From: Lachnospiraceae bacterium 28-4
GTDB taxonomy: Bacteria; Bacillota; Clostridia; Lachnospirales; Lachnospiraceae
Assembly (NCBI GenBank): GCA_000403275.2
Contig: KE159599.1
Location: forward strand, 521,391 to 585,390
Length of the DNA stretch: 64,000 nt
Reading direction: 5' to 3'
The notes beneath the pieces are model-generated. The model did no database searches. It worked only from the letters and a program-made list of their open reading frames with translations, and was not told the DNA's origin. Shown here piece by piece: positions 23,027-35,133 of the stretch (its first letter is position 1; each line of letters starts with the position of its first letter). Position numbers and translations under genes: made by a program.

Positions 23027-25006
23027 TTATATCGTTCGAAGCTTTACTGCCTCCACCACTTCCGCCAGTTCTCCGGCTTTCTGCAAAGATCTGGCTGCGG
23101 TTTCATCCGTTTTTCTGGACAGTTCCTGATTGGCATTGGCTACTTCCAATACCTTTTCGATCTCATCCCCCACTTGGTCCAGCGCGTTTTGCTGCTCCCT
23201 TGCCACTGCTTCTATTTCATTGGAAATGCCCGTAAATTCCTTCGTTACTTCCTGGATCTCCTGGAACGAGCCTGCGGTCGTCTCAGCCGCTTTCATTCCC
23301 TTGTCGATCGAGCGGCTGGCCTGGCCGATGATCGCCACGGTCTGTTTCAATGCTTCCGCCGTCTCATCCGCAAGCACTCCGATCTGCTGCGCAACGATAC
23401 CAAAGCCTCTTCCCGATTCTCCGGCTCTGGCTGCCTCGATAGAAGCATTCAATGACAGCAGACTGGTCTGATCCGATATTTCCTCGATCATTTGGCTGAT
23501 ATGGATGATTTCCTGCATATTGGCATAAATATCGTTCATTGCTTCCAGCATGGTATCCATCTGTTCTTTGCCCTGATCGGCTTTTTCCTGTGCGCCGGCC
23601 GCAAAGCCTTTTACATTGGACGCGCTCTCGTTGATCTTTCCTATCCGGTCCGTCACCATCCGAATACTGCCTGTCAGACGATCCAGTGCCTTTTCCTGCT
23701 CCATAGAACCCCCGTACAAACGCTCCGCATAGCCCGATACCTCCGAAGAATTCCGCCCCACCGCCTTTGACGACTCATAAATATGATGCATCGTTTCATT
23801 CAGGGAATCCGTAATCTTGCAAAGGGCTTTCCTGATCGCAACAAAATCACCGGTAAAGCTGTCCGGTACTTCCTGGGAATAATCCCCCTCCGACAGCCTT
23901 CCAAGCACCCTTCCCAAATCTTCTATATAAGCATCCACATTTCCAATCGTTTTCGCCAGAGCCTCCGTCATAACCTGGGCTTCATCCCCCGTCTCCGCAA
24001 TCACCACTTCGTCTTTCAGATTGCCTTCTGCCAGGGAAGCCAGTCTGCGCGTCGCCAAAGACAAAGAATCCGATATCTCCCTGCTCACTTTGCCGCTGTA
24101 TGCCACGGCTCCCGCCATAAGCAAGATTCCAAGCGCAATGCTCACGATACCGGTCACAACCACCGCTCCCATAAAGTCGCTGTTAGGCGCATCCACCACC
24201 AGCGTCCAATTTGTTCCGGCCACCGGGGAATAAGCGGCATAATGATATACCCCATGCATCCGCAGGCCTGCCGCCCCCGTCTGGAAATCCGTCATTGCGT
24301 CAAATATTTTGTCATTTCTTTTGGAACCATACAAATCGTAAATATTATTCCGAGCCGGCATATTTTCTTTTTCCCTGTCCGCAATAATATCTCCTTCTTC
24401 GTTAATGATATACGCTCCCCCGTTTACTCCGATATTGATATTTCCCAATACATCGTTCAGCAGGTCATATTTATAACTGCCGATCAAATACGCATAATTT
24501 TCATCTTCCTTTTTCAGCGTGATTGCCACGGCAACCTGCCAGATGCCATCCTCATACACCGGTTCGCCGATCACTATATTGTTCGTCACCGCCACATTCT
24601 CATAATACTCTCTTCCGGCAATGGATTCCGGCGATTTTTCATCCCCATACAGCTTCCGCCCCTCCATGTCATATGCCGCCAGCCAGACAAATTCTATACG
24701 GCTCTTCCTTTCCTCCAGAACTTCCAATTTTGCCGCCTCGTCCGCCGTCTCGTCCACCAGAACCTCCTCCAACGCCAGATTTGCCATCCTGTCCGTCAGG
24801 AGATGCAGATTGGAACTGATATTCTGGGAAGATATTTTTGCTACCATTTGCATATTATCCAATAAAAGGGTTTTGGTCGTTATCAGATTGCTGACGATCA
24901 TAGCCGTTATTAACAGCACTCCGAGCAGCACGGACACCGACATCACGCAAAAAATAATTTTCTGTTTGATCCCCTTTTCTCTTTTCTCATTTTTCTGAAA
25001 TTCCAT
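23027..25006 (-). CDS. Membrane methyl-accepting chemotaxis protein with extracellular Cache domain
   Basis: About 660 residues: TM1 near residues 20-42, an extracellular dCache-type sensor (residues ~45-280), TM2 (VVVTGIVSIALGILLMAGAVAY), HAMP-like helices and a signalling domain with tip [17 protein letters not shown]. The sensor contains VWLAAYDMEGRKLYGDE and YHYAAYSPVAGTNWTLVVD, typical of small-ligand Cache domains. The ligand is unknown. Start is ambiguous: this ATG has GGAAAGGAA 12 bases away, while one 10 codons upstream has no site. The downstream FMN-binding lipoprotein is 37 bp away and may be co-transcribed. Confidence 0.9.
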   Translation of the reverse strand: MEFQKNEKREKGIKQKIIFCVMSVSVLLGVLLITAMIVSNLITTKTLLLDNMQMVAKISSQNISSNLHLLTDRMANLALEEVLVDETADEAAKLEVLEERKSRIEFVWLAAYDMEGRKLYGDEKSPESIAGREYYENVAVTNNIVIGEPVYEDGIWQVAVAITLKKEDENYAYLIGSYKYDLLNDVLGNINIGVNGGAYIINEEGDIIADREKENMPARNNIYDLYGSKRNDKIFDAMTDFQTGAAGLRMHGVYHYAAYSPVAGTNWTLVVDAPNSDFMGAVVVTGIVSIALGILLMAGAVAYSGKVSREISDSLSLATRRLASLAEGNLKDEVVIAETGDEAQVMTEALAKTIGNVDAYIEDLGRVLGRLSEGDYSQEVPDSFTGDFVAIRKALCKITDSLNETMHHIYESSKAVGRNSSEVSGYAERLYGGSMEQEKALDRLTGSIRMVTDRIGKINESASNVKGFAAGAQEKADQGKEQMDTMLEAMNDIYANMQEIIHISQMIEEISDQTSLLSLNASIEAARAGESGRGFGIVAQQIGVLADETAEALKQTVAIIGQASRSIDKGMKAAETTAGSFQEIQEVTKEFTGISNEIEAVAREQQNALDQVGDEIEKVLEVANANQELSRKTDETAARSLQKAGELAEVVEAVKLRTI

Positions 25007-25113
25007 AAAACATCCAAGTTCCTTTCCTTCCGTCATTCATCATTTTTATGCACAGATAGTTTTATTATATAACAATTCTTTCTATCTGCACAGAAAATTT
25101 TTATGCTTTTAGC

Positions 25114-25566
25114 AGAAATCAATTTTACCGGCCAGCGGAAAGGATGGGGCAGGGCGGGGACACAGAAAGCGGCAGACGGCAGGGCAACGGCGGGCGGCGG
25201 AAAGTAGAAGGCGGCGGAAGGCGGAACAGGGGCAGCGGGCGGCATTTTCTCGTGCGGCTTCGGGAAATGGATTTTCTAAATATTCCGGTAAAGTTGTATC
25301 TGCCGTACGCAACCGCGCGCGATTCGCCATCCAGGCTCATTGCGCGCTTTTTGTGACATCCATGTCACCAAATTGCTGTTTTTGGAACGGAATATTAAGA
25401 AAATCTCATTTCTCTTCGCAAAGCAGCTTCGAAAATGCCGCCCGCTGCCCCTATCCCGCCTTCCGCCGCCTTTTACTTCGCGCCGCCCGCCGCTGCCCTG
25501 CCGCCTGCCGCTTTCTGCGTCCCCGCCCTGCCCCATCCTTTCCGCTGGTCGGTAAAATTGATTTCT
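25114..25566. repeat. 453-bp giant palindromic element A
   Basis: Arms 25114-25249 and 25431-25566 are both 136 bases and pair without gaps with about nine mismatches, most giving G-T pairs. The arms have strong strand bias (G/A-rich left, C/T-rich right). A 180-base core contains weaker complementary segments and an apical palindrome GTGACAT-CC-ATGTCAC. The core is about 90 percent identical, in inverse orientation, to the core at 34909-35075, while the arms are unrelated in sequence. It fills most of a 640-bp gap before a plus-strand gene. Open frames here have no ribosome sites. Confidence 0.88.
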
Positions 25567-25648
25567 TCGTATACTTTACCTGTGCATTCGTCCCCGGATC
25601 ATGTATAATGGTGATATATATCTAAAATAGGAAAATTGGAGGACTGCC

Positions 25649-26410
25649 ATGAAAGAACAATTATATACGATCCCCCTTAACGATGCCATAAACGCCAATG
25701 ACGAATGCCCTTTCTGCTTTATTGAAAGAAATGTGGAACAAGATTTGCTGGATTTTGTTTTAGGCTCCGGCTCTTCTTATATGGAAAGCGATATCCGTGA
25801 AGCCACGGATAAGGCCGGATTCTGTAGAAGCCATTTTAAAAAAATGTTCGATTATGGCAACACCCTCGGAAACGGATGGATACTGAAAACCCATTTTCTG
25901 CATATGAATAAGCAAATGCATGACCAATTCCGCTCCTTTGTCCCCCAGAAAACGCCTCTGATGGGCAAGCTGAAAAAAAATGCCGCCCAGCGCAGTTCCA
26001 TCGGCGTCTGGGCAAAGGAACAGGAAAAATCCTGCTACATATGCAAACGGTTCGAAGATACCTACGACCGTTATCTGGATACTTTTTTCGTGATGTATAA
26101 AAAAGACGGGGAATTCCGCAACAAAGTAAAAAATGGAAAAGGATTCTGCCTTCCCCATTTCGGCGATCTGTGCGACGCGGCGGAAACCCGGTTAAATGAT
26201 AAAGAAAAAGCGGAATTTTATCCTATGCTTTTTACACTGATGGAAGAGAATATGAAACGGCTTTCCGATGATGTGGCATGGCTGGTGGAAAAGTTCGACT
26301 ACCGCAACCAGGCCGCCGACTGGAAAAACTCCAAAGACGCGGTGCAGCGCGGAATGCAGAAACTGGCCGGAGGATATCCCGCCGACGATCCTTACAAAAT
26401 GAATAAATAG
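25649..26410 (+). CDS. DUF6062 family protein
   Basis: A 253-residue soluble protein with four short Cys/His motifs, ECPFCF, FCRSHF, SCYICK and FCLPHF, evenly placed in two similar halves, which suggests two metal-binding or thiol sites. This layout matches the DUF6062 family common in Lachnospiraceae and other clostridia; no function is known to me. The ATG follows GGAGG by 6 bases. A TATAAT at 25604-25609 is a plausible -10. It is transcribed against the DJ-1 gene, with a shared terminator hairpin at 26421-26456. Confidence 0.85.
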   Translation: MKEQLYTIPLNDAINANDECPFCFIERNVEQDLLDFVLGSGSSYMESDIREATDKAGFCRSHFKKMFDYGNTLGNGWILKTHFLHMNKQMHDQFRSFVPQKTPLMGKLKKNAAQRSSIGVWAKEQEKSCYICKRFEDTYDRYLDTFFVMYKKDGEFRNKVKNGKGFCLPHFGDLCDAAETRLNDKEKAEFYPMLFTLMEENMKRLSDDVAWLVEKFDYRNQAADWKNSKDAVQRGMQKLAGGYPADDPYKMNK

Positions 26411-34684: not shown

Positions 34685-34850
34685 GCCGGAACGCTCCTGC
34701 CGGATGCTGCGCTCCTTTTCTTATCATCATATTATAAAATCTTCAAACTTTCAAGGGGTAACTCAGGGAAATCCATTTTGTCGGGCTTGACTGCAAGTAG
34801 TACGCGGAGCGGGGCAGAGGAAGGGAGCGAAGCGGAGGACGGAAGGGCCA

Positions 34851-35133
34851 GGAGGGAGAGGGCAAAGGAGGCGGGGGAGGCGGCAGCGGGCAGCGTTTTC
34901 GAATCTGCGTTACGCAGAGAAATGAGATTTTCTTAATATTCTGTTCCAAAAACAGCAATTTGGTGACCTGGATGTCACCAAAAGCGCGCAATGAGCCCGG
35001 ATGGCGAATCGCGCGCGGTTGCGTACGATTGATACTCTTTTACCGGAATATTTAGAAAATCCATTTCCCGAAGCAGCAGATTCGAAAACGCTGCCCGCTG
35101 CCGCTTCCCCCGCCTCCTTTGCCCTCTCCCTCC
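34851..35133. repeat. 283-bp giant palindromic element B
   Basis: Arms 34851-34908 and 35076-35133 are 58 bases each and pair almost perfectly, the one difference being a G-T wobble. They are purine-rich on one side and pyrimidine-rich on the other but differ in sequence from the arms of element A. The enclosed core is about 90 percent identical to the core of element A in opposite orientation, including an apical near-palindrome GGTGAC...GTCACC. It lies between the two-helix membrane protein and the GNAT gene. Confidence 0.85.

Follow-up and report, generated by a model that had tools for sequence, protein, structure and literature searches.

A MITE-like element family built around the TwoAYGGAY RNA motif, with arms most likely kept complementary by DNA-level copying

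Background

Correia, RUP and ERIC sequences are bacterial MITEs or palindromic repeats that are short, non-coding and multi-copy, with terminal repeats and a target duplication. The elements described here, which came to light in a 64,000-nucleotide stretch (hereafter the window) of the genome of Lachnospiraceae bacterium 28-4, are comparable to these in their shortness, non-coding nature, copy number, terminal repeats and target duplication, but differ from them in possessing an RNA-like core and arms that stay paired while their sequence drifts. Earlier reports describe palindromic elements of Rickettsia that lose their identity over time and nematomorph mitochondrial palindromes reaching 284 bp (PMC6649704), yeast inverted repeats that are homogenised, and whose spacer is inverted, by template switching (PMC8604942), and template-switch patterns in RNA genes, the largest of 59 bp (PMC8794818). 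With the template-switch inverted repeats and the nematomorph palindromes our elements share arm rewriting, spacer inversion and mirrored substitutions; what sets them apart is that they form a bacterial mobile family whose members are dispersed and whose spacer measures about 160 nt.

The core of the elements corresponds to the TwoAYGGAY RNA motif (Rfam RF01731), the likeness consisting of a full-length match and of a basal stem that carries two hairpins with GGA in the loop. The motif was listed among probable RNAs without a cis-regulatory role, from the human gut, gamma-Proteobacteria and Clostridiales (Weinberg 2010, PMC2864571), its two GGA hairpins were proposed to bind CsrA, making it a CsrA-sequestering sRNA (PMC4333381), and its annotated helix was lengthened on covariation grounds (PMC7657543). 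Rfam types RF01731 as cis-regulatory. The accessible text of Weinberg 2010 mentions neither mobility, terminal repeats and 9-bp duplications nor dozens of copies and concerted arms, and in the open literature searched we found no description of TwoAYGGAY as a mobile element. Likewise, the open literature searched on Lachnospiraceae MITEs, palindromic mobile elements, concerted inverted repeats and CsrA yielded no report of such an element.

Results and discussion

Two giant hairpins with a shared core

The two copies in the window, elements A and B, consist of the following parts (window coordinates):

25102..25110, no strand: left 9-bp copy of the target duplication of A, TATGCTTTT, matching the right copy at 7/9 positions
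25111..25126, plus strand: left terminal repeat of A, AGCAGAAATCAATTTT, the consensus with 3 changes
25114..25249, plus strand: left arm of A, 136 nt, 93% complementary to 25431-25566
25255..25421, minus strand: core of A, TwoAYGGAY RNA motif RF01731, 120.6 bits (gathering threshold 43)
25431..25566, minus strand: right arm of A, pairing with 25114-25249
25554..25569, minus strand: right terminal repeat of A, a match to the end motif
25570..25578, no strand: right 9-bp copy of the target duplication of A, TATACTTTA
34764..34779, plus strand: left terminal repeat adjoining B, CAGGGAAATCCATTTT; no right-hand partner was found and its membership in B is uncertain
34847..34908, plus strand: left arm of B, 62 nt, 97% complementary to the right arm
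34910..35076, plus strand: core of B, TwoAYGGAY RNA motif RF01731, 107.1 bits
35076..35137, minus strand: right arm of B, pairing with 34847-34908

Recomputation returned the ungapped 136-nt arms of A, with 181 nt between them, at the same coordinates and the same 93% as the original prediction, which had also described the arms of B as pairing almost perfectly; this holds for B, over 62 nt and not the 58 given there. The minus strand of A folds at -363.9 kcal/mol against -172.8 kcal/mol for its shuffles (sd 7.2; n=100; z -26). An arm-extension score of 103.5 for A and 51 for B compares with a mean of 0.5 and a maximum of 7.5 among 200 pairs of unrelated flanks, which excludes chance as the source of the pairing. 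The cores are oppositely oriented, as had been noticed, and both are full-length matches to the covariance model of RF01731, so that the design does belong to a named family where none had been recognised. The view that the arms of A and B cannot be aligned applies to the outer arms, whose alignment score of 11.0 is reached by 438/500 shuffles, so that they are no more alike than shuffled sequence, and does not extend to about 28 nt adjoining the core, which are common to both elements. The genes on either side of A encode a chemotaxis receptor (MCPsignal, dCache_1; 23027-25036, minus strand) and a DUF6062 protein (25649-26410, plus strand). In a related MAG (L182) the matches flanking A are about 211 bp apart, compared with a distance of about 660 bp in the window; this site is empty by length only, as the intervening sequence is too diverged for a base-level junction.

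Family size and spread

The genome from which the window derives (G000, 4.28 Mb) contains 62 matches to RF01731, falling into two subfamilies of 22 and 40, and in 61 of these the flanking arms pair over at least 31 nt (range 31-145 nt); the sole copy without such arms (C2:1029249) adjoins a truncated IS. The initial observation is thereby confirmed, and the phenomenon is much larger than first described: an absence of further copies, or copies with unpaired arms, had been named as grounds against it, and what we found were these 62 copies, 61 of them with paired arms. A relative available as a draft assembly (G009) has 53 copies. Several of its contigs (such as C2, C16, C29, C30, C75, C81, C91 and C96) start or stop in or beside elements, which therefore seem to break assemblies, making draft copy numbers probable underestimates.

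Among the 16 genomes of the genus, own genome included, 12 have matches, with 4 to 58 each among the matches listed. Counting the own genome again, a match occurs in 39/250 sampled genomes of the bacterial family (37 above the cut-off; at most 10 candidates scored per genome) and in 40/398 of the phylum (34 above the cut-off; at most 6 candidates scored per genome); these matches indicate that the TwoAYGGAY element is not a local oddity. The related genomes, ranked by protein identity, are mostly Lachnospiraceae isolates and MAGs. In genomes other than G000 and G009, arms of at least 30 nt flank 41/44 usable copies, drawn from 50 loci of the genus and family searches (6 were too short; L080, also short, was omitted). 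Ten loci of the phylum sample, one of them too short, comprise 8 distant ones with arms of 25-34 nt and one from the same bacterial family (L304) with arms of about 50 nt.

Terminal repeats, target duplications and empty sites

A terminal inverted repeat with the consensus CACGGAAATCMATTTT lies at the outer arm ends of both subfamilies, and its inner 13 bases have 50 hits in G000 compared with 0 for the reversed pattern. Elements with both ends are about 340-460 bp long. A 9-bp target duplication matches at 6/9 or more positions in 29/57 copies, against 0.9% in a control of 3,000 random pairings; these 57 are the copies with both ends among the 115 of G000 and G009, the others having no recognisable end or too little flank. 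Two empty sites were found: at one, a G009 copy is bounded by the exact duplication CTTCATGCC and the corresponding G000 site (L102) is cleanly empty; at the other, the L088 locus, G000 is occupied and L329 is empty. Based on the terminal repeats, the duplication and the empty sites, A and B are copies of a non-autonomous, MITE-like insertion element. The original prediction had seen no terminal target duplication and had considered a classic MITE not obvious; both statements have to be given up, although for B only the left end motif was recovered, the end motifs and decayed duplication being those of A.

A same-place copy in G009 exists for 11/62 G000 copies, a count obtained from a draft assembly and a search limited to the fetched loci. 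Several shared loci have cores that are not mutual closest relatives and may represent separate insertions or replacements. We considered whether the G009 element at the position of B is the same insertion with fully replaced arms and rejected this, as the G009 copy is bounded left and right by a duplication of its own, GTCAGGGAAA; since that duplication lies inside terminal-repeat-like sequence common to both genomes, the two are probably separate insertions. The copy C2_229286 and its G009 counterpart were similarly rejected as one insertion because the two, although found at one site, fall into different subfamilies.

Among the inspected pairs of G000 end motifs (at most 2 mismatches, about 1-4 kb apart) we found no autonomous transposon with the same ends. 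A 3.4-kb pair contains ordinary genes, and a 1.9-kb pair (C1:190021-191929) turned out to be an element interrupted by an IS that encodes a DDE_Tnp_1 transposase, with ends of its own and a duplication of 10 bp. This IS is present in 8 G000 copies, one of them partial (C1:190202-191788 and seven further places, L291-L298), and in 6 of the 8 the host is a TwoAYGGAY element, entered at its first GGA hairpin with duplication of 10 bp (for example CCATCCATGG); it has no match in 15 relatives at E 1e-50. It is comparable to the ISs that target REP palindromes, such as ISRm22 of the IS4 family with nine copies in REPs (PMC1525189), the target being the TwoAYGGAY hairpin and not a REP. The elements themselves differ in size and architecture from REP/BIME palindromes, which measure 20-40 bp and go with a REP-associated transposase.

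A few arrangements deserve separate mention. At L103 (G000:C3:678000-680400), near position 1170, two terminal repeats stand about 18 bp apart, likely a deletion remnant of about 50 bp. Where G000 copies neighbour each other within 500 bp, 4/5 pairs have cores that are mutually closest or second closest, compared with 0/3 such pairs in G009. Among the matches listed, 14/15 pairs of elements with starts at most 500 bp apart are divergent (including C3:653045-/653430+ and C1:1195130-/1195564+), and close pairs also occur in G009, G013, G023, G052, G101 and G223.

An RNA-like core

Full-length cores of G000 and G009, with 4 truncated cores and 1 aberrant core omitted, have GGA in both loop windows in 107/110 cases compared with 11% of shuffled cores. 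Mismatches within the core hairpins comprise 32 G-U against 8 A-C cells, or 16 against 6 distinct types, and in the basal stem 26 G-U against 20 A-C distinct types; the hairpin excess is modest after collapsing copies by descent. The GGA loops together with the hairpin mismatch spectrum suggest that the core is a functional RNA. The paired GGA-loop hairpins are shared with the CsrA-sequestering sRNAs, which the elements depart from in reaching up to dozens of mobile copies per genome; the core would be transcribed and would bind a protein such as CsrA, CsrA binding being putative here.

The genes neighbouring the 62 G000 copies, as delimited by mechanical ORF calls, are divergent in 22 cases, run in the same direction in 18 + 17, and are convergent in 4, with 1 unassigned; given these mixed orientations, the elements do not occupy the position expected of the cis-regulatory type assigned by Rfam. 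By the same calls, elements between divergent genes outnumber those between convergent ones (22 against 4). Calls placing 14/62 copies inside a long ORF were set aside, such mechanical predictions being unreliable with GC-rich arms.

Arms evolving in concert

We compared the innermost 82 nt of the two arms within each of 97 copies with arms of at least 55 nt. The median likeness of the own arms is 0.962, against 0.720 for the nearest other copy (never above 0.890), and in 94/97 copies the own arms are more alike than the nearest other copy. The proposal that structure is kept independently of sequence is therefore upheld, own arms being 96% alike and the nearest other copies 72%. The same behaviour extends to the ends of the element: variants in one terminal repeat are echoed in the partner repeat in 69/132 cases, against a mean of 17.3 and a maximum of 28 in 500 shuffles.

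Insertions shared between G000 and G009 carry mirrored differences. Counting inside the arms only, and excluding other same-place pairs because their cores are not close, we observed columns changed in both arms together at 16/69 arm columns in C3_179914/C8_18904 (core rank 1 both ways), 26/86 in C1_921605/C102_17660 (core rank 3 both ways), 11/38 in C2_1325088/C76_144372 (core rank 3 both ways) and 28/79 in C2_679145/C60_825 (core ranks 2 and 17). In the same four pairs, in this order, the own arms of a copy differ at only 2, 4, 3 and 3 columns in G000 and 4, 1, 1 and 5 columns in G009. A fifth pair, C2_128811/C79_9037, has 20/71 mirrored columns and an identical insertion point, with core ranks of 38 and 39; here the element may have been replaced since insertion.

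In 60/62 G000 copies the purine fraction of the 5' arm is high, at 0.55-0.75, and copies from other genomes scatter around 0.5. This richness is not accounted for by the template-switching explanation developed below.

Copying into host DNA

A palindrome at L088 (G000:C1:1396341-1396723) has perfect 102-nt arms, encloses a spacer that gave no RF01731 match and extends 15 nt past the terminal repeats into host DNA. The empty site in G009 has the same, native 5' flank and continues with a different 3' flank; in G000 the reverse complement of the 5' flank stands in place of the latter. Thirteen loci of relatives correspond to this place, several of them too diverged or short for a junction alignment; the 5'-flank motif occurs in the G000 orientation in two (L329 and L334) and as its reverse complement in none. 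L088 thus shows the source and the target of one copying event in host DNA, and it is the one clean case of flank overwrite. Along with the mirrored multi-base changes in the arms, it provides what is looked for in a template switch, namely a copied sequence whose template and destination can both be identified.

At L175 a 21-nt overrun is found for which the G009 counterpart has a different yet mirrored version, and no empty site is at hand; insertion into the loop of a native terminator is a less likely explanation of this mirrored flank. At L018, neither version of the flank is present in G009. Across the family, at least 10/12 bases outside the ends are mirrored in 2/57 copies, against 0/20,000 controls, suggesting that flank overwrite is rare; L088 and L175 fall outside this test as they have no RF01731 match.

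Template switching and its alternatives

In light of these observations we propose that the arms are kept complementary by copying at the DNA level, most likely through template switching at the hairpin, which is the one among the causes offered at the outset that is favoured for the arms by the mismatch spectrum, the mirrored changes, the outward fading of arm agreement and the flank overrun. A transposase supplied in trans would have moved the element, consisting of the terminal inverted repeat, long arms and TwoAYGGAY core, into a site where it generates a 9-bp target duplication. Once the element is in place, the arms would extrude as a hairpin, and the nascent replication strand would switch template onto the opposite arm, such that a mutation in either arm is either reverted or copied to the other. 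The hairpin shape would in this way be inherited while the sequence of the arms drifts. Such copying would be strongest near the core, fade outward and sometimes overrun the element into the host flank; it could also invert the spacer, and the core would meanwhile evolve in the manner of a functional RNA that presents GGA in two loops. The flanks of G000 and G009 differ by about 10-15%, so that the comparison captures end states, from which we infer the copying, and not single mutational steps; among forms of templated repair, replication template switching appears to be the route.

The main alternative is that the arms are homogenised by homologous recombination between them, through gene conversion or crossing over, and not by template switching at a hairpin; we consider this conceivable, if doubtful. 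At one shared site (C1_921605) G000 and G009 have the core in opposite orientations with respect to its flanks, a known by-product of template switching (PMC8604942) that recombination would also be expected to produce. However, arm mismatch rises from 2.3% beside the core to 10% at 100-119 nt, with 174/5,081 mismatches in the inner and 215/2,870 in the outer positions (p 3e-15) and 3/67 in the last bin of 120-139 nt. Taken copy by copy, the outward trend is significant in 6/24 copies with at least 4 mismatches and an inward one in 0. As mismatch is lowest beside the core, the copying seems to start there; agreement that is best at this point and fades outward is what pairing begun in a hairpin predicts. 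Moreover, copying past the end of homology is unlike conversion bounded by homology.

We regard it as improbable that the arms are paired through compensatory mutations selected to keep a long hairpin in RNA (or DNA), although the GGA loops and the G-U excess of the core hairpins would accord with selection on an RNA. A selected RNA hairpin tolerates G-U pairs but not A-C mismatches. On the strand that corresponds to the core RNA, mismatched arm positions total 230 G-U and 239 A-C (G000, 104/107; G009, 72/70; the 44 copies of other genomes, 54/62), and this equality does not support selection on RNA as the keeper of the arms, which had been among the causes first offered; equal transcription and selection of both strands would likewise balance the two. 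Also at odds with such selection are the arms of L088, which are perfect around a spacer other than TwoAYGGAY in a palindrome that enters the host flank, and the variation in arm length, from 31-145 nt in 61 copies to 25-34 nt in 8 distant genomes. Less credible still is an ordinary MITE, with arms perfect at transposition that decay later and copy differences that mark old subfamilies: the element is MITE-like and shares few insertions (the 11/62 above), but if arms were perfect at birth and not later, closely related sister copies would be required, whereas the 14 copies with own arms at least 0.99 alike have their nearest other copy at 0.76 (median) and are thus not fresh subfamily members, and both the mirrored differences at shared insertions and a flank overwrite outside any transposed unit speak against it.

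Implications

With these findings, an Rfam candidate RNA of unknown function can be identified concretely: it forms the core of a mobile element. Going further, TwoAYGGAY might be a selfish, shape-inheriting element whose long perfect hairpin is renewed in place by template switching and whose RNA core serves as a decoy for a CsrA-like protein, spread through gut Bacillota genomes; we offer this as a speculative reading. If it were true, covariation in such families would in part be a replication artefact and not a proof of RNA function.

The dozens of copies per genome amount to a natural experiment on a disputed matter, the use of compensatory changes as proof of a selected RNA structure. 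Set against the usual inference of RNA structure, the mirrored arm changes seen here arise without any preference for G-U and even enter the host flank. Part of the covariation signal of RF01731 that was used to lengthen its helix (PMC7657543) may have its origin in template copying. The count of G-U against A-C mismatches is a cheap test that separates these causes, and it is applicable to other RNA families defined on the basis of covariation.
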